A stretch of 28,962 nt of DNA from a virus, in IMG/VR virus record IMGVR_UViG_3300045131_000401, positions 1-28,962 of that record; one strand, 5' to 3'. This document shows positions 1,290-13,803 of the stretch, piece by piece. Below the pieces are notes generated by a model. The model did no database searches. It was not told the DNA's origin and worked only from the letters and a program-made list of their open reading frames with translations. The position numbers and the translations under genes are program-made. Position 1 is the first letter of the stretch, and the number at the start of each line of letters is the position of its first letter.

Positions 1290-3059
1290 ATGGTTGAGAT
1301 TCTTTTTGCTCCGGGGCTACGACCCGTTCTAAAGCATGGAAGTCATAACCAGCAAAACCATGCAGCAAAAACAGGTAGTGAAGACACAGGTTCAGGTTCT
1401 CCAAAATTAACAATTATGGGTAAGAACGATGGCACGAATAAGTTTTTTAATGAAGATACTCGTGTAGTTCGCCATCAGCCAGATGGAAAAGAACCTACGG
1501 ATTATGTTTTATATGCTCAAAAAAATTTTGTAGTCGCAATAGTTAAACCTAAAGACGGAACGACAATCAACGGATATAGCGAAGGCGGAACAAATAAAGG
1601 CGAAATTGGGCATTTAGATATTACTGGCGCTGGAAGTAATCCTTGGCGTAGTTCTGCTAAAAACGATAACAAAGCAACAATTACTGAAGTTGCTGTAGGT
1701 AAAGCGCACCAACGCCGAGGCTTGGCTTCAGCAATGCTTCGTTTCCATAGAGATAAATTTCCTGAGTTAGATGTGCAACATTCTGATGCTCAATTACCAG
1801 ACGGAAAAGCGTGGGCTGAAGTTGCCAAGCATGGAAGTCATGATCAAAAAACTCATGCAGGAAGAATCGGAGTTCACACCGGGCGGCGTACTGATTCTAA
1901 AAATCAACAGAAACTTGATCGAAACCTCATTTATGACGCCACAACAATGTCTGCTCTTCCGGCCCCGTTACGGAAAAAGATTGAAGGCTCCCTTGAGGTT
2001 TTGGGTGTCACGCAAAAACAGATGGAAGACAATGTGCAAGCGGTGCTTGATAGAGCGAAGGCCGCTAATGATCCACCTGAGGGTAGAGATTGGTACGAAC
2101 AAGCCAATAATGCAGCGCAGTCAATATCGGATAAGTATGGTTTAAGCAGGACTGAGACGGCGGGCATGATTGCAGCGATGAGTCCGCAGCAACCGTGGGG
2201 TGACAATGTTACGGCAGCGGAATATGTGGCAAAATCGTTGTCCGAAAAGCACGCTGTGCAGGTTGACGATTTGATGGGTCAGTCATTGACAAAAGGGGTT
2301 GGGCAGCCTGCTAAGCCTGTCACGAAAACAATGTATGAGTGGGCGCAGGCCGAAACTGATGGAGTTACAGGCACCCGCAAAATGGACGGGCAAACGCACA
2401 AGATGCCGGATCCCGATGAACTGCGTGGGAAAACTGTTGACCAGTTAGACCCTTATGTAGCGGCAGCGATTATCAAAGCACACGCTCAGATGGGTTATCG
2501 GGTCGCTGGGGTTGGAGATAATGTTGATGGTCAGCAATTAAAAACTATTGACGATCTTACGGGTCTCCCGGCTCCCGTGAAATTTACTTGCGGGGTTCAC
2601 CACATGGGCCGCGCCGTCAGAGTCGCGCAAGGCGAAAGTCCAGATGAGGTTTTGAACGGCCACAAAGTTCGATCCTTCTACAACAACATTTCCGGCGACA
2701 AGTCCGTTGGCACTTACTCGGACGATGTCACCGTAGATTCGCATGCTTTTAGTGTGGCGATGGGCGTAAAGTATGGTTCGGGTTCCGTTGAGTACGGATA
2801 TTTCGCTGGATCTAGTTGGCCTAACCCGGCGTCAACGAAAGAAAACAGGTTACCGCCGTTGCACAGTGCGGTTGGCAGCGCGACGCCCGGAGTTGCTGGA
2901 TCGTATGCCGCATTCGCTGACGCCTATCGAGAGGTTGGTCGGCGTAACGGTTTGTCGGCTCGCGAGGTGCAATCGATTACTTGGGTTCAGTGGCGGAAAG
3001 ATAACCCTGATCAAACAAGGGGTGGGCAGATGGCTGCAATGGAGGTAGAAAATGAGTGA
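1290..3059 (+). CDS. Tagged mosaic protein: GNAT acetyltransferase module plus phage C-terminal domain (putative virion cargo/effector)
   Basis: A 589-aa protein starting at ATG two bases after the MuF stop, preceded by GGAAGAGG. Residues 15-24 carry the tag KHGSHNQQNH. Residues about 30-170 form a GNAT-like acetyltransferase module with the acetyl-CoA-loop motif Q141-R-R-G-L-A (EVAVGKAHQRRGLASAML). A second tag, KHGSHDQKTH, lies at residues 180-189. The C-terminal ~390 residues show AAMSPQQPWGDN (295-306), KVRSFYNNI (from 459), TVDSHAF (481-487) and ITWVQWRKDNPD near the end. I associate this pattern with an uncharacterised phage family whose VDSHA segment recalls the catalytic VDTHV of HhH-GPD DNA glycosylases; that link is weak. 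The first module is clearly more AT-rich than the second. Substrates are unknown. The MuF neighbour suggests a head-associated protein, but this is inference. Confidence 0.7.
   Translation: MVEILFAPGLRPVLKHGSHNQQNHAAKTGSEDTGSGSPKLTIMGKNDGTNKFFNEDTRVVRHQPDGKEPTDYVLYAQKNFVVAIVKPKDGTTINGYSEGGTNKGEIGHLDITGAGSNPWRSSAKNDNKATITEVAVGKAHQRRGLASAMLRFHRDKFPELDVQHSDAQLPDGKAWAEVAKHGSHDQKTHAGRIGVHTGRRTDSKNQQKLDRNLIYDATTMSALPAPLRKKIEGSLEVLGVTQKQMEDNVQAVLDRAKAANDPPEGRDWYEQANNAAQSISDKYGLSRTETAGMIAAMSPQQPWGDNVTAAEYVAKSLSEKHAVQVDDLMGQSLTKGVGQPAKPVTKTMYEWAQAETDGVTGTRKMDGQTHKMPDPDELRGKTVDQLDPYVAAAIIKAHAQMGYRVAGVGDNVDGQQLKTIDDLTGLPAPVKFTCGVHHMGRAVRVAQGESPDEVLNGHKVRSFYNNISGDKSVGTYSDDVTVDSHAFSVAMGVKYGSGSVEYGYFAGSSWPNPASTKENRLPPLHSAVGSATPGVAGSYAAFADAYREVGRRNGLSAREVQSITWVQWRKDNPDQTRGGQMAAMEVENE
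1332..1365 (+). repeat. Tag-coding DNA repeat, copy 1
   Basis: Encodes KHGSHNQQNHA. The 15 bases AAGCATGGAAGTCAT (1332-1346) and the closing CATGCAG (1359-1365) recur exactly at 1827-1841 and 1854-1860, offset by 495 bp in the same reading frame. The two copies bracket the GNAT module. Diverged relatives of the tag occur at 3268, 6481 and 7045 in other genes. Confidence 0.85.
1827..1860 (+). repeat. Tag-coding DNA repeat, copy 2
   Basis: Encodes KHGSHDQKTHA. It is the second in-frame copy of the repeat at 1332, with 15 identical bases at the 5' end and 7 at the 3' end. It marks the junction between the AT-rich GNAT module and the GC-richer C-terminal domain of the same protein. Confidence 0.85.
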
Positions 3060-4539
3060 TGTTCGGATTTCTCCCAATACGGATCCTGATGAACTTGGGG
3101 ATCTTGTTGACCCGTGGGATGCGTGGCTGAATGGTGATATTGCAACGGAAGACCTCTCCGATGATTTGCAGAAATATGCTTTAGAGTTCACAGATTCCAC
3201 TTCTATGACTTCGCTTGTTTCTGAGCCTGTTGTTATTAAGTTTCAGGCTGGACTTAAACCGATTTTGAAGCATCTTCCGGGACAACATGATCAGTCTTCT
3301 CACGGGGGCGGCGGTGGACAGTTATCACTCCGAGGTGTTGGTGGTGCTGGTGCTTCAGGTGAATTTTCTGAGTGGGGTGATCGGGCTCCTGAGTTGATTG
3401 CTGCACGAGGTATTGGTCCTAGTCGAGATGAGTTAGAAGCGGCTATTGCCCGTAAGGTTTCTCGTCAAGAAGTGCGCGAAAGTATCGAATCAACTTTTAG
3501 TTACGATATCAAAACTGAAACTGATATTAGAATGCTTAGCAATGCACCGCGTGATATGGATGAAAAACAACGCGCCATCCTAAGAGATGAATTGTACGAA
3601 CGGGCTGTTGATAGATACGTTGAACAGTACGGGTTTGAGGCGCGAAGGCGTCTAATAGATAGAAATAGTACCGATATAGATCTGTCTTCTATGGAAGATG
3701 TTTACAGTGTTACGCATGAAGGTGTGACTCGTAATGGTGTGTCCGTTAGTTTACGTTCTGAAGTTACTTCCGTTGAAAAGTATGGATCAAATTCTTTTGA
3801 TGTGCAAGGACCGATTATAGATAATAAGACTGGAAGTGGGGTTGGTCGATTTAAAAGAAGTTTTGGTGCTGATGAAAATGGAAACCTGTCAGTCTCACAC
3901 GAATTCTTAGAGATAAGTGATGACTATCAAGGATCAGGTTTCGCTAAAACATTTAACAGGCAGGCTGAAAATTTCTACATCACCCGTGGTATCAACGATG
4001 TTTATGTTCACGCCGCTTTAGATGGTGGCGGTTACGCTTGGGCTTCTGCAGGATTCGATTGGGATCGCGGAAATCTAAATCAATCGGTCAATAACATTTC
4101 ACGCAGGATGGATACTTACTTAACGGATAAACCTAATATTCCAAGGACGATCAGAGCCGATATTCAATCAACTCAAACAAGGTTGAAGTCACTTCCCGTG
4201 GGCAGCCCTAACTATCCGACACCTAAAGAGATCTCTGACCTTGGTCGTATTGAAGGGGTAAATAATTGGCCGGGTAAAGAAATCATGCGTGGATCTAACT
4301 GGTACGGCAAGAAAACTTTACGTCCTGAGGGTGCGCGGGTTTCTACGACTCAAGCCGCTAAGGAATCTGAGAGGGCTCAGCAGCGGGAAATTCAACAGGA
4401 GCGTAATCGTGAGGCTGCTACGAGAGCGCCCGGTGTAGGACAGTTGACGATGGATAACAATTTTCTGGATGGGGCATTACGGCAGTCTCCTGCTTACCAA
4501 ACCCCATTAATTGAACCTATCCCCGGTATGGTACAATGA
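3052..4539 (+). CDS. Tagged mosaic protein with GNAT-like GGYAWA domain (putative virion cargo/effector)
   Basis: A 495-aa protein whose ATG overlaps the upstream stop by 8 bp. After an acidic ~60-residue start comes an extended tag: FQAGLKPILKH, then LPGQHDQSSH (K73 to H84), followed by a Gly-rich linker. The preceding gene has a matching lead-in (FAPGLRPVLKH). Residues about 240-340 look GNAT-like: DDYQGSGFAKTF with Q293-G-S-G, then GGGYAWASAGFDWDR (325-339). I have seen GGYAWA-type segments in MuF-associated and polyvalent phage proteins. A further conserved-looking piece, WPGKEIMRGSNWYGKKTL, lies near residues 405-425. The C-terminus is Gln/Arg-rich and probably coiled. Acetyltransferase activity is inferred from fold motifs only. 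Position and tag suggest the same destination as the 589- and 990-aa proteins. Confidence 0.65.
   Translation: MSDVRISPNTDPDELGDLVDPWDAWLNGDIATEDLSDDLQKYALEFTDSTSMTSLVSEPVVIKFQAGLKPILKHLPGQHDQSSHGGGGGQLSLRGVGGAGASGEFSEWGDRAPELIAARGIGPSRDELEAAIARKVSRQEVRESIESTFSYDIKTETDIRMLSNAPRDMDEKQRAILRDELYERAVDRYVEQYGFEARRRLIDRNSTDIDLSSMEDVYSVTHEGVTRNGVSVSLRSEVTSVEKYGSNSFDVQGPIIDNKTGSGVGRFKRSFGADENGNLSVSHEFLEISDDYQGSGFAKTFNRQAENFYITRGINDVYVHAALDGGGYAWASAGFDWDRGNLNQSVNNISRRMDTYLTDKPNIPRTIRADIQSTQTRLKSLPVGSPNYPTPKEISDLGRIEGVNNWPGKEIMRGSNWYGKKTLRPEGARVSTTQAAKESERAQQREIQQERNREAATRAPGVGQLTMDNNFLDGALRQSPAYQTPLIEPIPGMVQ
3268..3303 (+). other. Histidine-rich tag, variant with LPGQ insert
   Basis: Codes for KHLPGQHDQSSH. 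It matches the KHGSHDQxxH tag of the neighbouring genes, with LPGQ in place of GS. It is followed by GGGGG, probably a flexible linker. Confidence 0.75.
4521..4537 (+). promoter_or_regulatory. Promoter P1 (CCCCGGTATGG box + TACAAT)
   Basis: The box CCCCGGTATGG (4521-4531) directly abuts a -10-like TACAAT (4532-4537), giving an extended -10 (TGG-TACAAT). It lies in the last codons of the upstream gene, 18 bp before the ATG at 4556. The same arrangement occurs at 7836-7852 and 9030-9046. A TTGAAC at 4511 is only 15 bp upstream of the -10, so a standard -35 is doubtful. Confidence 0.6.
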
Positions 4540-4555
4540 TTGTGGGAGGAAAACT

Positions 4556-4798
4556 ATGAACAGAGAACAAGAATTAGCGCGAGTTTCCGACGTCAACGAA
4601 AAATGGCTACGGACGTTTAAAGACACACCAAACTTCGATCCAGACAATCCAACACTGGAGCAATCCGATGAAGAGTACCGTTTAACAAAAGAAGAGTTTG
4701 GTCAAGTTGGTGTGGGAGAGTTCGCAGAGTCCGTAGCGAAAATGAGTGAAGAAGAATTAGCGGAATTGCGTAAATCGCCAATTTATCAAGATATATAG
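4556..4798 (+). CDS. Small acidic protein, function unknown
   Basis: An 80-aa protein. I chose ATG 4556 because GGGAGGA (4544-4550) lies 5 bp upstream; an upstream in-frame ATG at 4511 would overlap the previous gene and has no comparable site. The product is acidic and mostly predicted helical (KMSEEELAELRKSPIYQDI at the end), with no cysteines, signal peptide or membrane segment. I recognise no family. It has its own promoter-like element immediately upstream and sits directly after a toxin-like GNAT-domain gene. That is the arrangement of an immunity or regulatory partner, but nothing in the sequence proves that role. Confidence 0.75.
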   Translation: MNREQELARVSDVNEKWLRTFKDTPNFDPDNPTLEQSDEEYRLTKEEFGQVGVGEFAESVAKMSEEELAELRKSPIYQDI

Positions 4799-4857
4799 GT
4801 CGTAGGTCTTTAATCCCCTATCCTTGACTCGTAGCACTTCGCAGAAGAGGATGGCAT

Positions 4858-7830
4858 GTGAACAAGACTGATACACGACTAGCAGGTTTGAGCGATGCTC
4901 AACTAATTGCTACACACAATGGTCTCGACGATCAGGTATCAGCCGACGCTGCAATCATTGAAGCACACCATTTAGTGGCAATCGAAATGTTGAAAAGAAA
5001 CATTCCTCACGGTCACATTGATGATGCGTGGGTCGATGCTGTAGTCCTGATTGAAAAAGTTGCAGTCGACAGCCCTGAGGATATTGCTGCACCTGCAGGA
5101 ATTGAGAAGGCGTGGTCTCAAGCCTTGGTTAAGGGCGGAACTGTTTCTGTTTTGTTGACTACCAATGGTTATGTTTTGAAGGCGGACCCAACGGTATCCG
5201 ACGTGCATGTCGATGCTGTCATGGGCAGTGGGCGTCGCCGTAAACCTCAGGCCAACATTTTTGATCTGCAAAAAACGATTAAGGAAGAAGACGGGAAATT
5301 CACCGTTTACTCGGAGGACGGTGCCCGGAAGTTTGGCACTTATGCGTCTTTAGAAGAGGCTGAGGCCCGTTTGCGGCAGATAGAGCGTTTCTCTAAGGCC
5401 GAGGGTTATTCGGTCCCTAGCGGGGTTCAGGAGGCTGCTAAGCGGGCTGTTGCGTGGATTCAAGATGGCAAGGCGGGCGATGGGTTCACTAGCGTCGGTC
5501 GTAACAGGGCCAGTCAACTGGCTTCCGGTGGCGTGATTGGTCAGGCGACTCTGGTAAAGATGCGTGCCTATTTTGCACGTCACGGTAAGCAACGCGGGAA
5601 TCATGATGCTCTGGTCGATGGTGAGCCAACACCGTGGAGGGTGGCGTGGGATGCGTGGGGCGGTGACGCTGGTAGGGCGTGGGTCAACCGTGTTCTAGGT
5701 GCCGTGGAGAAGCGTGCTACTCCTGAGCCAATCATTGACTTGCATTTGAATCTTGAGAACCGGCAGCACGCGATTGACGAGTATTTGTACGGACCGATGA
5801 ATCCTGATGAACCGGGCGACTATTGGGATCGTCTTGGTGAAGTGTGGGGGGTGTCTGGCGATGAGGCTTCGACGACCCGTTGCGGGAATTGTGCGGCTTT
5901 CAATGTGAAGTCGGAGATCAAGGATGCAATGGGCGATGCGATTAGCGAGGAGGGCGAGGAGGTAGTTGATCTTGCGGATCTCGGTTACTGCGAGTTGTTG
6001 CAGTTCAAGTGCGCTGGCAGTCGCTCGTGTTCCGTCTGGTTGACGGGTGGGCCGATTAGTGACGATTTTGAGGGCAGCGACGACGAAATTGAGTTGCTGG
6101 AATCAATGGATGCTGAGGATTTTGCTGAGTTTGCTGCGTATGCTTATTTGGCTGATGAGATGGAAGAAGAATTTGAGAAGCGCGGTAATCCTGAGGCTTT
6201 GCGGGACTACTGGCGTAAAGGCGGTAAAGGTAAGATCCCGTGGGGTGCCGGTGGTGATTTCACGGCTTGTGTCGCTGCAGTGGGTAAGTACATGTCGTCG
6301 GAGCAGGCTAAGGGCTATTGCGCTATTCGTCATCGTGAGGTCACTGGTATGTGGCCGGGTGATAAGAGGAATCGCACTAAGAAGTCCCGTGAGGCGACAG
6401 CGAAGTTCACCCTTCCCGGTGGTGCCACTTACGAATATAGCCTCCCAGTGGACTTCACAGGGGATTTAGAGACCATTTTGAAGCACGGTAGCCATGATCA
6501 GAAGGCTCACGCGGGCAAGGGTGGTGCTTCGGGTGATGTTGACCCAGAAATCGCCGCTTCAATTGTTGAACGTGTGCGGGCTAACGGCGGGTTAAGTGTC
6601 AACATGGTTGATGGTTCTGAGCCGCCAAGTGGTTACATGGTTGCTCGTGTTGGAGTTAAGGCAGCAATTGTTGATGCCGATGATTTTTATGACACTGAAA
6701 AAGGACCGGCTGCATTATCGTCTTTTATGAAGGACAATAAAGCCGAATTATCCGGGGGTGACTACCTCGGGGTATGGCACGATACTGATGGGGGTAAGGT
6801 GTACCTCGACGTATCACAAAATGTTGCAAGCCGATCCACTGCTATACGGTTTGGTGAAGAAAGAAATCAACTCAGTATTTGGGATGTAGTAGAGGGAATG
6901 GAGATACCAACTGGTGGCACAGGAGAACTTGAAAAAGCAAAAGCCTTTAGAGGCGATCAAGTTGCCGGATCTGTCGAAGATGACGGACGAGGAGATCGAC
7001 GCTTACGCGAAAGAGATTTGGTTGAACTTCAGCCAGAAATAAATAAGCACCTAAAAGGTAAGCACGATCAGAGCAGTCACTCTCGTGGTGGAGGCAGAAG
7101 TGATACCACGGTTCAAAGTGGTGGCGCTGGGGCAGTCGAGTATGGCGGCTATAAATTAAATGCGCCTGACAATCCTGCCGGTGAGACTGCAAAGCGCGGT
7201 GCCGATTCTATTGCCGCAGCAAAAAAAGAACGGGCTAAAGTTGCTTCTATTGAGCCAGAGATTACTCGGGACATGATTGATGTGGCGAACGCTAATGGTG
7301 CAAAAATGGATGGGCTTGATCAACGTTTAAAATCTGAGAAATCATTGGCCCGGAAAATAGATGATGAAAAAGATTCCGACTTTGATGGTGATGCAACAAA
7401 GACCGCTGAAAACATGTCTGACGTTGCTCGTTACACGATGACGTACAAAGACAGTGATTATGTTTCCGGTGCGAATCGAGTGGTTGAGGATTTGCGGGAA
7501 AAAGGCTATGAGATGCGTGTTAAAAATTATTGGCAAGATGGTGACCCGTATCAGGGCATCAACATCAGCGCGGTTCATCCAAACGGCACTAAGTTTGAGT
7601 TGCAGTTACATACGCCAACGTCTCTTGATTTTAAGGAGCCTACGCACGCAAAGTATGACAAGTATCGTGAGTCAACTAGCCCTCAAGTTCGGTACAAGGA
7701 ATACACCAGCATGAGGCGTATTGCTCGACAGATTCCAAAACCACCACCTCCTGATGGATTAAGTGCCATTGGTGATGCTAAGTTCCAGCCCTTTACCCCG
7801 ACGCCTGAGTCAGCCCCTGTCGCCATATGA
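4858..7830 (+). CDS. Large tagged mosaic protein ending in a RelA/SpoT-like domain (putative virion cargo/effector)
   Basis: A 990-aa protein starting at GTG after AGAAGAGG. Modules in order: residues 112-122 carry TVSDVHVDAVM, resembling the capsid N-terminus. Residues 182-281 (SVPSGVQEAAKRAV ... YFARHGKQ ... WDAWGGDAGRAW) match a segment common in phage head proteins. A cysteine cluster follows (C342-x2-C345, C378, C385, C391), probably metal-binding. Residues about 447-505 (DYWRKGGKGKIPWGAGGDF ... GYCAIRH ... MWPG) are another recurrent phage module. Tag KHGSHDQKAH sits at 542-551, then a domain with YLGVWHDTDGGKVYLDVS and RNQLSIWD, then tag KHLKGKHDQSSH at 730-741. The C-terminus resembles RelA/SpoT nucleotidyltransferases: Y898-Q-G-I-N, F913-E-L-Q-L-H-T and H930-A-K-Y. 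Activity is not demonstrable here. Domains of this type are known at the ends of MuF-linked polymorphic toxins. Confidence 0.7.
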   Translation: MNKTDTRLAGLSDAQLIATHNGLDDQVSADAAIIEAHHLVAIEMLKRNIPHGHIDDAWVDAVVLIEKVAVDSPEDIAAPAGIEKAWSQALVKGGTVSVLLTTNGYVLKADPTVSDVHVDAVMGSGRRRKPQANIFDLQKTIKEEDGKFTVYSEDGARKFGTYASLEEAEARLRQIERFSKAEGYSVPSGVQEAAKRAVAWIQDGKAGDGFTSVGRNRASQLASGGVIGQATLVKMRAYFARHGKQRGNHDALVDGEPTPWRVAWDAWGGDAGRAWVNRVLGAVEKRATPEPIIDLHLNLENRQHAIDEYLYGPMNPDEPGDYWDRLGEVWGVSGDEASTTRCGNCAAFNVKSEIKDAMGDAISEEGEEVVDLADLGYCELLQFKCAGSRSCSVWLTGGPISDDFEGSDDEIELLESMDAEDFAEFAAYAYLADEMEEEFEKRGNPEALRDYWRKGGKGKIPWGAGGDFTACVAAVGKYMSSEQAKGYCAIRHREVTGMWPGDKRNRTKKSREATAKFTLPGGATYEYSLPVDFTGDLETILKHGSHDQKAHAGKGGASGDVDPEIAASIVERVRANGGLSVNMVDGSEPPSGYMVARVGVKAAIVDADDFYDTEKGPAALSSFMKDNKAELSGGDYLGVWHDTDGGKVYLDVSQNVASRSTAIRFGEERNQLSIWDVVEGMEIPTGGTGELEKAKAFRGDQVAGSVEDDGRGDRRLRERDLVELQPEINKHLKGKHDQSSHSRGGGRSDTTVQSGGAGAVEYGGYKLNAPDNPAGETAKRGADSIAAAKKERAKVASIEPEITRDMIDVANANGAKMDGLDQRLKSEKSLARKIDDEKDSDFDGDATKTAENMSDVARYTMTYKDSDYVSGANRVVEDLREKGYEMRVKNYWQDGDPYQGINISAVHPNGTKFELQLHTPTSLDFKEPTHAKYDKYRESTSPQVRYKEYTSMRRIARQIPKPPPPDGLSAIGDAKFQPFTPTPESAPVAI
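6481..6510 (+). other. Histidine-rich tag, first copy in the 990-aa protein
   Basis: Codes for KHGSHDQKAH, almost identical in protein to the 1827 copy but with different codons (AAGCACGGTAGCCATGAT), so it is not a recent DNA duplication of it. It precedes the GVWHDTDGGKVYLDVS domain. Confidence 0.8.
7045..7080 (+). other. Histidine-rich tag, second copy in the 990-aa protein
   Basis: Codes for KHLKGKHDQSSH, the longer tag variant also seen at 3268 (KHLPGQHDQSSH). It is followed by an SRGGG linker and precedes the region that ends in the RelA/SpoT-like domain. Confidence 0.75.
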
Positions 7831-7835
7831 ACATA

Positions 7836-7852
7836 ACCCGGGTTGGTATAAT
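7836..7852 (+). promoter_or_regulatory. Promoter P2 (ACCCGGGTTGG box + TATAAT)
   Basis: A consensus TATAAT (7847-7852) with extended TGG in front and the box ACCCGGGTTGG (7836-7846). AACCCGGGTT (7835-7844) is a perfect 10-bp palindrome. The ATG of the protease gene lies 21 bp downstream, after an AAAGGA ribosome site. It matches P1 (4521) and P3 (9030). Confidence 0.7.
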
Positions 7853-7873
7853 GTCTTTAGAAAGGAATTGACG

Positions 7874-8500
7874 ATGGAAATACGATATTTCGTAATGACA
7901 GATAAAGACGATCAACCGTTGACGCTTTTGCGTCTCAGAATTGATGACACAGCCGAAGAGTTGTATGAAGAAGAGTGGAAAAATGATTGGCAAGAATCCA
8001 AACGGCTAATGCTGTACATCACTGACGGTGATCCCAGACTGATTGAGATAACAGAGACTGAGGCCCGTGAAACTTTTCCTTCAGCGTTTTCGGAAGCGAC
8101 ACTAATTTCGAAGGCTGTCGATGAACGCATGTTCACCCTTGGTCCTATGTATATTCCAAACGTGATGGATGCTCATAACGAGTGGACGGATCCTGATGAG
8201 TTGCAAAAGGCTGTTTGGGATTATGTGCAAAAAGGTGATCGTCGGATTCGTTTGCAGCATGATCGGGATAAGATCGCTGGCGAGTTTGTTGAGATCATGA
8301 CTTGGCCTTATGAGGTTGAGGTTCCTATGCTGATGAAAAACGCGACCGAGAAAAAACTTAAGTTCCCGGCTAACACTGTTTTTCTTGGGGTTGTTTGGGA
8401 GCCGTGGGCATGGAAGATGGTAAAGGACGGTAAACTTAGAGGATATTCGATTGGTGGTCGTGCTGAGAGACTCTTGGCGGATCTTCCTGATGAGGAGTGA
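7874..8500 (+). CDS. XkdF-like prohead/head-maturation serine protease
   Basis: A 208-aa protein. ATG 7874 is chosen because AAAGGA lies 7 bp upstream and promoter P2 lies between the previous stop and this start. Residues about 75-200 follow the XkdF-type (S78-like) phage protease pattern: ERMFTLGPMYIPNVMDAHNEW, a charged helix, LQHDRDK with candidate catalytic H129, then W-PWAWKMVKDGKLRGYSIGG with candidate nucleophile S192. Such proteases act inside the procapsid, cleaving scaffold and capsid N-termini before DNA packaging. The scaffold and capsid genes lie downstream in this window, as expected. Family assignment is good; the catalytic residues are my reading of the motifs. The histidine-tagged proteins next door are possible additional substrates, which is speculation. 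Confidence 0.85.
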   Translation: MEIRYFVMTDKDDQPLTLLRLRIDDTAEELYEEEWKNDWQESKRLMLYITDGDPRLIEITETEARETFPSAFSEATLISKAVDERMFTLGPMYIPNVMDAHNEWTDPDELQKAVWDYVQKGDRRIRLQHDRDKIAGEFVEIMTWPYEVEVPMLMKNATEKKLKFPANTVFLGVVWEPWAWKMVKDGKLRGYSIGGRAERLLADLPDEE

Positions 8501-10232: not shown

Positions 10233-10256
10233 GGGGTTGGTTGAAACTCCATCCCC
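10233..10256 (+). terminator. Possible weak terminator hairpin after the OB-fold gene
   Basis: GGGGTTGG (10233-10240) pairs with CCATCCCC (10249-10256) over eight positions with one mismatch and an 8-nt loop, 9 nt after the stop codon. No T run follows, so termination would be inefficient or factor-dependent. Confidence 0.35.
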
Positions 10257-10268
10257 CCTCCATGATTG

Positions 10269-10277
10269 TGCTAATCT
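10269..10277 (+). promoter_or_regulatory. Possible extended -10 promoter for the scaffold/capsid genes
   Basis: TGC followed by TAATCT forms an extended -10-like element about 80 bp upstream of the scaffold start. It lacks the CCCGGG box of P1-P3 and has no clear -35, so support is modest. If real, it would produce the structured leader at 10295-10337. Confidence 0.35.
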
Positions 10278-10294
10278 ACAAGTTATCGAGACCT

Positions 10295-10337
10295 GCGGGT
10301 TGTTGTTTAACGCATAAGGCGTTAAATGATTGCCCGC
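10295..10337 (+). promoter_or_regulatory. Nested hairpin in the 5' leader of the scaffold gene
   Basis: A perfect 8-bp stem TTTAACGC (10306-10313) / GCGTTAAA (10319-10326) closes on an ATAAG loop. Outside it, GCGGG (10295-10299) pairs with CCCGC (10333-10337) across a symmetrical 6x6 internal loop. The structure ends 10 nt before the AGGAGG site at 10348-10353 in an otherwise gene-free gap of 134 bp. An RNA-level control or stability element is likely; no known riboswitch class is recognised. Confidence 0.55.
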
Positions 10338-10357
10338 TCTTTCATGTAGGAGGATCG

Positions 10358-11173
10358 GTGGGACGACCGGCTCGCAAGATGGTTAACCTTTCCATCGAAG
10401 AAACGTCGGGTGTTGATCACCCGGCACACTTGCATGAAGGTTGGCTCGTAATGAAAGCCGCCTCGGAGGACGCAGTTGCAGTTGCACTCGATAGTGCCGC
10501 TGTAGAGATCCCGAGTGAAGATACAGATAAGTCCACCGAGGAGGATGTCGTGGAAGAAACCACAATTGAGAAGGCTGAAAAGCCATCTTATGAGGATCTA
10601 ATGATGGCCCTCAAGAAGGCTGAAGAGCGTCTTGTTGAGATGGAAAAAGAAATGAATGGGATGAAGAAGCCCAAAGAAGCGATGGTAGATGAAGAAGAAG
10701 ACATGATGAAGTCTGCTCCTGAGTCTGTTCGCAAGGCATTCGAAGATATGCAAAAGGCTGTTGAAGACGCGAAGGCTCAGGCTGACGTCGCTGAAACAGA
10801 ATTGCGTAAAGAACGTGGCGAGCGTGCCGATGCAGATGCAATCGTCAAAGCCCGTACTTCTTTCGCATCTCTTGGTCTTGATGCCGAGCAGGTTGGCCCA
10901 GCATTGCGCCGCCTTGCAGATAATGATTCTGATCTTGCTAAGTCCGTCGAGGATGTTTTGACTGCTGCTAACGCAAAAGTTGAGTCCGCTGACATTTTTA
11001 GTGAGATTGGTAAGTCGACTCGTGTAGCGGGTTCGGTTTACGAAAAGGCTGAGGCTATGGCTAAAGCCGCCGTTGTGGACGGGAAGCATTCCACAATCGA
11101 GCAGGCGTTGACCGATGTGTTTACTTCGGACAGCGATCTGTACAAGTCATATCTCGCCGAGCAGGGAAAGTGA
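10358..11173 (+). CDS. Capsid scaffolding-type protein
   Basis: 271 aa. GTG 10358 is chosen because AGGAGG (10348-10353) lies 4 bp upstream; the only later in-frame start nearby, ATG 10379, is too far from any ribosome site. The N-terminus (SIEETSGVDHPAHLHEGWLVMK) resembles the start of phage scaffold and head-protease-associated proteins. The middle is strongly charged, with Met/Lys/Glu-rich helices typical of scaffolds (EEDVVEETTIEKAEK, MALKKAEERLVEMEKEMNGM) and a predicted coiled coil to about residue 165. The C-terminal part is helical and ends SDLYKSYLAEQGK. It precedes decoration and capsid genes, the normal scaffold position, and is a likely substrate of the XkdF-like protease. The role is inferred from composition and position. 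Confidence 0.7.
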   Translation: MGRPARKMVNLSIEETSGVDHPAHLHEGWLVMKAASEDAVAVALDSAAVEIPSEDTDKSTEEDVVEETTIEKAEKPSYEDLMMALKKAEERLVEMEKEMNGMKKPKEAMVDEEEDMMKSAPESVRKAFEDMQKAVEDAKAQADVAETELRKERGERADADAIVKARTSFASLGLDAEQVGPALRRLADNDSDLAKSVEDVLTAANAKVESADIFSEIGKSTRVAGSVYEKAEAMAKAAVVDGKHSTIEQALTDVFTSDSDLYKSYLAEQGK

Positions 11174-11595: not shown

Positions 11596-12573
11596 ATGCC
11601 ACAACCAACAATCAGCGACGTCCATATTGACGCGATTCTGACGAACATTTCTGTTGCATACATGCAAAAAGCAGAAAACATGATCGCAGATAAGGTCTTT
11701 CCGGTCGTCCCAGTTGATAAGAAGTCAAACAAATATTTTACTTATGACAAGAATGACTGGTTCCGTGACGAAGCACAGCGTCGCGCACCGGGCACTGAGT
11801 CTGCTGGTGGCGGGTACAACCTGTCCACAACTACCTATTCGGCTGATGTTTTTGCATTCCACAAGGATGTAGACGATCAGACTCTTGCTAACGCTGATAC
11901 GCCACTTAACCCGTTGCGTGAGGCTGCAGAGTTTGTGACAAGCCGTTTGCTTCTTCGCCGTGAGGTTCAGTTTATTTCTGACTTCATGACGACTGGAGTT
12001 TGGGCAACTGACGCCACTGGTGTTAGCGGATCCCCAAGCAGTGGTGAATTCCGTCAGTGGAACGACTACACCAATTCAGATCCGATTGAGGATATTGAAG
12101 AAGCAAAAGAGGATATCCTTTCAACCACGGGTTACGAGGCCAATACTCTTGTTCTTGGTTATCAGTCGTTCCGCCAGTTGAAGAACCATCCTGATGTTGT
12201 TGACCGCTACAAGTACACAACTTCAAGCGTGATCACTGAGGAAATGTTGGCACGCTTGTTTGGTGTTGATCGTATCCTCGTGGCAAAGTCAGTTCGGGCA
12301 ACCAACAATGAAGGTCTCACTCCTGCTTACGGATTCAATTTCGGCAAGAGTGCATGTCTCCTCCACGTTGCACCAAATCCCGGTTTGATGACACCTTCCG
12401 CTGGTTACATCTTTGCTTGGACCGGCGTTTCGGGTGGGCTTGGTTCCACTATCGGTACTTCACAGTTCCGTATGGAAAGCCTGCGTGCCGCTCGCATTGA
12501 GGCTGAGGTTGCCTTCGACAACAAAGTTGTTGCAAGCGATCTTGGTTATTTCTTTGCTAGTTGCGTGGCTTAA
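11596..12573 (+). CDS. Major capsid protein
   Basis: 325 aa with a good ribosome site (AAGGAG, 9 bp before ATG). The N-terminus reads SDVHIDAILTNISVAYMQ, then FPVVPVDKKSNKYFTYDKND and GYNLSTTTYSADVFAFHKDVDD. This is a pattern I recognise from a widespread family of siphovirus major capsid proteins. The C-terminal half has the expected mixed alpha/beta composition and ends in hydrophobic strands (VVASDLGYFFASCVA). It forms the icosahedral shell, presumably of HK97 fold, though the fold cannot be shown here. There is no obvious long N-terminal delta domain, consistent with a separate scaffold gene. It is followed by a strong terminator, as often seen after capsid genes. Confidence 0.9.
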   Translation: MPQPTISDVHIDAILTNISVAYMQKAENMIADKVFPVVPVDKKSNKYFTYDKNDWFRDEAQRRAPGTESAGGGYNLSTTTYSADVFAFHKDVDDQTLANADTPLNPLREAAEFVTSRLLLRREVQFISDFMTTGVWATDATGVSGSPSSGEFRQWNDYTNSDPIEDIEEAKEDILSTTGYEANTLVLGYQSFRQLKNHPDVVDRYKYTTSSVITEEMLARLFGVDRILVAKSVRATNNEGLTPAYGFNFGKSACLLHVAPNPGLMTPSAGYIFAWTGVSGGLGSTIGTSQFRMESLRAARIEAEVAFDNKVVASDLGYFFASCVA

Positions 12574-13393: not shown

Positions 13394-13803
13394 TGGCTCG
13401 CACTGTGCGGTTGCGTAATCTTGATCGGTTGCAGGCAGCGTTTATTACTGCAGGTAAGGATGCTCCTCGTTTTGCGGCTCGTGCTTTGTTGGAGGAGACT
13501 CAGGAGGCTTTTATTCTTTCTCAGGAGGTTGTCCCTGTTCGTACTGGGGCTTTAGCAACCTCGGGTATGGTAAATGGTCCTTTTGTTAAGGGCTCAAAAG
13601 TGTCAACCAGTATTGAGTATGGTGGGCCCGCTGCAGGTTATGCGATTTTTGTTCATGAGTTGCCTCCTGCTCGTGCTAGTCATGATTACCCTACGCGGTG
13701 GAAGTTCCTTGAGAATCCGGTAAGGCTTTACGCTGAGGGCATGGGTGATCGTATGACTACTAGAGTTTTAGACATGATTGCTAAAAGATTCGAGATGAGT
13801 TAA
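13393..13803 (+). CDS. HK97 gp10-like neck/tail-completion protein
   Basis: 136 aa, starting at ATG inside the previous stop (ATG overlaps TGA by one base). It carries the family motifs VPVRTGALATSGMV, a beta stretch around YGGPAAGYAIFVHELPP, and HDYPTRWKFLENPV, followed by a C-terminal helix. These are typical of HK97 gp10-type proteins that join head and tail. The next gene starts within its stop codon (TAATG), so the neck genes are translationally coupled. Confidence 0.85.
   Translation: MARTVRLRNLDRLQAAFITAGKDAPRFAARALLEETQEAFILSQEVVPVRTGALATSGMVNGPFVKGSKVSTSIEYGGPAAGYAIFVHELPPARASHDYPTRWKFLENPVRLYAEGMGDRMTTRVLDMIAKRFEMS

Follow-up and report, generated by a model that had tools for sequence, protein, structure and literature searches.

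A short histidine-rich tag ahead of effector-like modules in phage head-gene clusters and its possible role as a docking peptide

Introduction

Phages that inject proteins along with their DNA are known in several forms. In the internal proteins of T4 and in DarB of P1, a peptide on the N-terminal side of the injected protein routes it into the head, and a reporter joined to the first 30 residues of DarB goes to the P1 capsid (PMC9024508). T4 Alt is a packaged and injected ADP-ribosyltransferase (ART), and the polyvalent proteins of phage type (Iyer et al. 2017), which combine several enzyme domains in a head-gene context, are proposed to be packaged and injected as well (PMC5512222). MuF polymorphic toxins, including Apk2, are encoded in head clusters and carry a C-terminal alarmone synthetase (PMC5576092, PMC12226406). 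Here we describe a short histidine-rich peptide (the tag) that occurs five times in three neighbouring mosaic proteins of a virus known from the 28,962-base IMG/VR record IMGVR_UViG_3300045131_000401, the whole of which is the window analysed below. The tag is one real conserved element, found ahead of many different modules in phage head-gene clusters.

Results and Discussion

The tag is a conserved element of phage proteins

An earlier, sequence-only reading of the window had placed the tag at residues 15 and 180 of a 589-amino-acid (aa) open reading frame (ORF), residue 73 of a 495-aa ORF and residues 542 and 730 of a 990-aa ORF, and all five copies are present exactly there. On the + strand these are KHGSHNQQNH (copy 1, 1332-1361, 19.0 bits against our tag profile), KHGSHDQKTH (copy 2, 1827-1856, 27.5 bits), KHLPGQHDQSSH (copy 3, 3268-3303, 36.3 bits), KHGSHDQKAH (copy 4, 6481-6510, 21.9 bits) and KHLKGKHDQSSH (copy 5, 7045-7080, 26.0 bits); the profile has 619 rows, of which up to five or so are the window's own through identical copies in two other loci, L098 and L074. 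The lead-in GL[RK]P[VI]LKH said to be shared by two copies is likewise there, as GLRPVLKH ahead of copy 1 and GLKPILKH ahead of copy 3. In a six-frame scan of the window the strict pattern gave no sixth copy, and the one looser match, at 13640-13675 (-), lies opposite + strand ORFs with a stop codon near it. When the residues of the three proteins were shuffled 20,000 times, one match was obtained altogether, versus the five observed.

Two DNA patterns of the tag were scanned through IMG/VR, yielding at least 119 stretches each; all counts of tag loci given here are among the matches listed. The resulting 210 loci come from contigs of uncultivated phages and include a stretch of the window itself as the first (L001); 750 tags in 478 ORFs match the regular expression in them. 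They are not all independent, since some lie on one contig. L098 and L074, of which the second belongs to a record of 52,860 bases, are identical in sequence to the window at the tested points; with the window's copies dropped by leaving out both, 705 tags in 448 ORFs remain. A further, codon-restricted pattern found 14 stretches, and because 10 of these were already in the sample, the first sample is estimated to hold about 70% of its kind.

Since the search patterns fix K-H..H-D-Q..H in all chosen loci (and one of them also G-G), only the upstream hydrophobic, T/S, W, A and linker positions provide free evidence of conservation. Of the 705 tags, 601 have V, I, L or M two residues ahead of the K, 635 have T or S ahead of the last His, and 526 have the W. 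G follows directly in 606 of 658 distinct phage tags, and G-x-W in 479. Glycine makes up 15.6% of the 25 residues behind the tags, versus 8.7% overall, and the conserved stretch measures 14-16 residues.

Reversal abolished the signal: the first DNA pattern read in reverse gave no stretch in the viral collection, compared with at least 119 forward, and the tagged phage proteins read backwards gave no tags, compared with 712. In bacterial genomes 47 of 119 stretches, among the matches listed, had a regular-expression match in an ORF of at least 40 aa. None of the 47 has the W after the tag and none is followed by G-x-W, as opposed to 479 of the 658 phage tags; thus, the bacterial matches look like chance, bacterial chromosomal proteins were rejected as carriers, and in this comparison with bacterial genomes the tag does not recur in unrelated proteins as it does in phages.

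Scans of Pfam, PHROG and NCBIfam, the last two with part of the proteins, gave no model that describes the tag by itself. The large phrog_2859 profile alone spans a tag, with tag-sized matches such as residues 396-417 of a protein in L012, and some catalogued virus proteins must therefore carry it. A plasmid search with a tag peptide gave no match, and the phages E3, Sebata, DSL-LC01 and Jera have no tag in the regions examined. String and topic searches of the literature, whose coverage leaves out preprints and most subscription journals, gave no paper on the motif among the matches listed.

The tag belongs to head-gene clusters

In 46 of 48 long tag-bearing records the pattern matched on a single strand, up to 19 times per record, and the reversed pattern matched in none. 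MuF is present in 36 of the 48, and the XkdF-like protease domain PF14550 in 30 (28 of them over the cut-off); among the other 18, PF04586 (S78) was found in 4, PF00574 (ClpP-type) in 1 and none of the three in 13, which are possibly fragments. An association with head genes is supported by 20 loci that have both MuF and the protease: every one of their 128 tags shares the strand of MuF, 106 standing between MuF and the protease and the remaining 22 no more than 4.7 kb past the protease. Where a tag comes after MuF (105 loci), the first is a median of 98 bp past the MuF domain. Tags are absent from 87 portals, 40 capsid proteins and 57 phrog_13547-type proteins, and present in 25 of 107 MuF genes and in 14 of the 70 genes that the protease profile picked out, some of the latter by short partial matches. 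These neighbours were named by PHROG as portal, MuF, protease and major head protein.

The window has the same setting, with four untagged head-cluster genes on the + strand. A MuF-type minor head protein of 369 aa (178-1287; Pfam PF04233 at 1.4e-9, our own MuF profile at 3e-119) lies directly upstream of the tagged genes. An XkdF-like head protease of the Peptidase_S78_2 type (7763-8500; PF14550 at 2.2e-12, own profile at 2.5e-97), a protein of the phrog_13547 family assigned by a family match (10241-11173) and the major capsid protein (11596-12573; 6.7e-189 to the profile of its family, the exemplar of which matches the major head protein phrog_1005) are also encoded there. The protease domain is matched by phrog_14859 ("RNA ligase") and phrog_1530 ("DNA methyltransferase") as well, labels that look carried over from fused domains. 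In three other loci an S78-type head protease is fused in one ORF to tagged modules (L204:6067-8040 (-), L197:3653-5830 (+) and L127:11134-12219 (-)).

Tags mark the boundaries of exchangeable modules

The sequence-only reading had taken the tag as a marker of module boundaries, and this holds across the sample. A segment of at least 100 aa follows the last tag in 312 of 325 complete tagged ORFs and one of at least 100 aa precedes the first tag in 79; the first tag lies within 40 aa of the start in 164. Gaps between tags have a median of 200 aa, 167 of 183 measuring between 120 and 400. When 452 tagged ORFs were split at their tags (the window's ORFs being dropped as duplicates of L098 and L074), 884 segments of at least 50 aa fell into 196 families and 234 architectures, and the commonest family was found behind a first, second, third, fourth or fifth tag. 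The tag and the domain behind it therefore behave as a cassette. A lead-in resembling F-x-[PAEV]-G-L-x-P stands ahead of 53 of the 221 tags that are N-terminal and of 38 of the 424 that are internal, most often where the module behind the tag belongs to one GNAT-fold family (31 of 40). It is therefore not general, and a universal T4-like leader was rejected.

The modules across loci include ARTs, alarmone synthetases and acetyltransferases, and a zeta toxin module is also found behind a tag; many families had no named match in profile scans. The commonest module is the ART (cluster 0, 82 segments), in which R, S-T and E-x-E are conserved in 40 aligned members, with matches to solved ART toxins and, for the exemplar, to an Alt-like PHROG phage family. 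In the tree of this family two subfamilies recur together as paired tagged modules, for example in L023, L040, L051, L060 and L106. For module family 8, Rhodococcus phage E3 has a homologue of 48.7% identity that carries the annotation of a structural protein and lacks the tag.

That tags stand ahead of toxin- or effector-like domains, as had been proposed, is supported. In the window, four of the five modules could be given at least a tentative identity, and the fifth, behind copy 4, has an unnamed fold. All three tagged genes are on the + strand. The 589-aa protein (1290-3059) has a weak GNAT-like module behind tag 1 (1362-1826; clusters 27 and 21; Pfam Acetyltransf_1 with E 0.015, below the cut-off) and a DUF7178 module behind tag 2 (1857-3056; PF23802 at 3.4e-35, phrog_3842 at 1.5e-36). 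In the 495-aa protein (3052-4539), tag 3 is followed by a helical region and a predicted GNAT fold (3304-4536), for which the AlphaFold2 model gave NatD and GmvT as best Foldseek matches (5e-4 to 6e-4), with AtaT and TacT lower. Between this gene and the next lies an untagged 95-aa ORF (4511-4798) with no Pfam or PHROG match, which could be a candidate partner or immunity-like protein.

The 990-aa protein (4858-7830) begins with an untagged leader of the phrog_2859/phrog_6439 family (4858-6480; phrog_2859 at 5.8e-84; cluster 4). The module behind tag 4 (6511-7044) is modelled as a well-folded alpha/beta domain; it had no match in the PDB by sequence (E 0.2 or worse), and fold searches of the PDB gave nothing at E 0.001 or below (Foldseek best 0.26; VIA-align best Z 3.6). 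This domain, predicted with a local distance difference test (pLDDT) score over 90, was also found in other phages: in Gordonia and Microbacterium phages it makes up small proteins, and in a Mycobacterium phage it is one portion of a larger protein. The module behind tag 5 (7081-7827) resembles RelA/SpoT-type synthetases (SaSAS, 8vx3, at 2.4e-31; Tas1 at 0.0035), and it is related to the C-terminal domain of some phage head proteins, with tblastn matches in phages of Streptococcus, Pasteurella and Mannheimia to proteins that are annotated as such. In prophages of such hosts a MuF-fused domain of this kind has been shown to be a toxic (p)ppApp synthetase (PMC12226406), and we infer that the tag-5 module may share this activity.

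In two AlphaFold2 models the tags fall outside the modules that are predicted with confidence; these modules have long stretches above pLDDT 90. Tag 3 is the cleaner case, lying in an internal stretch of the full-length model (residues 68-102) that is below pLDDT 50. The block means of 44-46 for tag 4 and about 50 for tag 5 come from near the start and from the very end of the modelled fragment, respectively, positions at which low confidence is expected in any case.

Concerted variation of tags in single genomes

The tags of one genome change in concert, even when they precede different modules. Tags ahead of different modules in one locus agree at 0.599, compared with 0.466 (standard deviation 0.006, maximum 0.481) in 200 shuffles of tags among loci within each module family. 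This co-variation suggests one phage-encoded partner per lineage.

The clearest example is an acidic form of the tag. L127, L197 and L204 share an S78-type protease at 88% identity or more; L202 was first grouped with them as acidic by its tags, and its kinship to L197 was then shown by five shared untagged genes at 85-92% identity. In these four loci D or E stands before the last His in 23 of 24 tags, compared with 6 of 261 in XkdF-type loci, and in the three loci with the shared protease alone in 15 of 16. Among tags of the ART family the residue is acidic in 7 of 7 within this lineage (five of them from L202) versus 0 of 75 elsewhere. The ART modules of the lineage are very divergent, with end branches of 1.2 to 3.2, and their tags nonetheless agree.

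A possible docking peptide

A procapsid-loading signal, one of the functions offered by the sequence-only reading, is plausible. We suggest that the tag may be a short linear motif that serves as a docking peptide, portable between proteins, by which injected effectors are loaded into the phage head. During procapsid assembly it would be bound by a head component that the phage itself encodes and that most probably sits at the portal/MuF vertex; each tagged effector would be enclosed in the head and later injected with the DNA, and could then reprogram or poison the host. The tag would work like the capsid-targeting sequences of T4 or P1, except that it is common to many effectors and repeated before each module. 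We consider this proposal evenly balanced between true and false, because its protease-site rival (see below) is weakened, yet MuF fusions keep the tag. Its broadest form, a universal cargo tag in which any domain behind it is an injected effector, a single head receptor co-evolves with it in each lineage and effectors are swapped as cassettes, is put forward more tentatively.

Several findings weigh against a loading signal or against a shared partner. MuF proteins with a C-terminal extension of at least 120 aa contain a tag in 23 of 27 cases, 22 of them behind the MuF domain. A pure loading signal should not be needed on cargo that is already fused to MuF, so these fusions count against the simple form of the proposal. 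(The idea that the tag substitutes for a covalent MuF fusion was rejected, since MuF-fused cargo is still tagged.) Four long records (G019, G032, G040 and G043) have some of their tags upstream of MuF. In one of these, G032, two small proteins with coiled-coil-like N-termini are encoded outside the head block (L159:8724-9856 (-)); the tag is intact in one of them and degenerate in the other. Their neighbours are genes which, from sequence, we take to be tail-fibre-like and M23-peptidase-like. The Ala codon behind the W is skewed to GCT (60% versus 32%) without explanation. Two tag queries of 29 and 43 residues gave no match at E 10 among 50,697 isolate phage records, a search that degenerate tags could escape; a control query of 30 residues from phage E3 matched 193 records, some of them at an identity of 60% or less.

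The concerted variation also has other possible causes. The acidic residue is replaced by S or T in two other S78 records and by K in the ClpP-type record; the acidic tag marks one lineage, not S78 proteases as such. The acidic-tag group may have a single origin in the ART tree, and gene conversion or vertical descent of tag-module cassettes could produce the same pattern. Since single origin and gene conversion also fit, the variation supports a shared partner and does not prove it. Neither does a Mantel comparison single out a partner: tag make-up correlates with MuF (r 0.64, 85 loci), portal (0.62, 70 loci), the phrog_13547-type protein (0.45, 41 loci), protease (0.44, 53 loci) and, not beyond permutation, the capsid protein (0.29, 27 loci), with shared ancestry as a confounder and with locus sets that differ.

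Alternative explanations

The tag might instead be a processing site, at which the neighbouring head-maturation protease cuts within the procapsid and so detaches modules from one another and from MuF, much as head proteins are processed in T4 and P1. The frequency of the XkdF-like protease (30 of 48 long records), the tags at junctions of MuF-fused and multi-module proteins, the V, I, L or M two residues before the K in 601 of 705 tags and the tags in 14 of 70 protease-profile genes (some by short partial matches) would all fit, and changes in the tag between lineages could follow changes in the protease. Against it, similar motifs are found in records with S78_2, S78 and ClpP-type proteases. 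S78 and S78_2 may be distant relatives, and ClpP is not related to them. A cleavage site for one protease, and with it the protease processing that had been proposed from the sequence, is thus weakened by tags in S78 (4 of 18) and ClpP-type (1 of 18) records. The 14-16 conserved residues exceed the length of the head-protease sites that we know of, and N-terminal tags have no modules to separate. In a further test of this explanation phrog_3017 was found in none of eight records. On balance we regard a processing site as unlikely.

A handle that acts after ejection, by unfolding or refolding the protein for passage through the tail or by contacting a host factor, seems more doubtful still. The rough correspondence of one tag per domain, the glycine-rich linker behind it and its retention even in MuF fusions would agree with such a role, but changes in concert by lineage fit a phage partner better, although the hosts may differ too.

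Metal-triggered release, the remaining suggestion of the sequence-only reading, found no positive support. Three His and an Asp in a compact pattern might bind Zn or another metal and act as a metal- or pH-responsive switch for release or assembly; metals are not typically bound, however, by residues such as those at the likewise conserved G-x-W-A, T/S and upstream hydrophobic positions, and some tags that are otherwise intact have another residue in place of the middle His, which makes the switch highly improbable.

Synonymous codons bear on whether the DNA rather than the peptide is conserved. K, H and Q codons in the tags are close to the background of their own ORFs. GAC accounts for 584 of 692 D codons, an excess that matches the avoidance of GATC throughout the tagged ORFs, as D codons elsewhere in them are GAC in 1691 of 2160 cases if C follows and in 4733 of 13668 if not. 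Most codon choices thus show that selection acts on the tag at the protein level. A mere recombination linker, in which DNA homology or a neutral spacer serves module swaps and the peptide is functionless, is the least probable of all: mosaicism at the tag is extensive, but K, H and Q codons vary where the residues do not (the codon test by which a DNA recombination site was rejected), polarity is strong, and a profile search of the tagged ORFs found 11 further degenerate copies (four cut by the locus edge) versus 711 on regular-expression tags, a count biased by the choice of loci for intact tags.

The avoidance of GATC at Asp codons before C is strong in the tagged ORFs of the other loci (L002-L210), as if the hosts carried a GATC-directed restriction system. 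In the window, three of the four Asp-bearing tags contain GATC or a GAT codon.

Implications

Searches for enzymes of host takeover can draw on the catalogue of tagged modules, which comprises ART, alarmone synthetase, GNAT, zeta toxin and unnamed folds. If the tag routes proteins into the head as a docking peptide, a single regular expression would be enough to list, for uncultivated phages, the candidates for injected effectors, many of which have no known function, and a short peptide would be at hand for loading chosen proteins into phage particles. How a phage chooses its internal effectors would become a question of binding between one peptide and a few head proteins, and in the broadest form of the proposal the whole would amount to a modular code for protein delivery, with effectors exchanged as cassettes.

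Comparison with known systems

MuF polymorphic toxins share with the window the location in the head cluster and, as predicted from sequence for the RelA/SpoT-type module, a C-terminal toxin domain; MuF fusions occur in related loci. They differ in that the toxin-like modules of the window are on separate proteins, none of the three having a MuF match, and are joined to tags. The word "linker" does not occur in the main text of PMC5576092 or PMC12226406, nor "motif" in that of PMC5576092.

Like polyvalent proteins, the 589-aa and 990-aa proteins combine at least two disparate predicted effector domains on one polypeptide near head genes. The accessible part of PMC5512222 describes no repeated peptide between the domains of polyvalent proteins; here a tag stands before most modules. 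T4 Alt is an ART, as is the commonest tagged module with its Alt-like PHROG match. We know of no tag of this kind in Alt.

A further parallel is with the capsid-targeting sequences of T4 and P1, which also lie on the N-terminal side, as many tags do, and route cargo into the head, a role that for the tag is our proposal. Unlike them, the tag is common to many unrelated modules and phages, and many further copies are internal and repeated. As a functional class, head-targeting peptides for injected proteins are already known from T4 and P1 (PMC9024508); what sets the tag described here apart is that it is shared and repeated.

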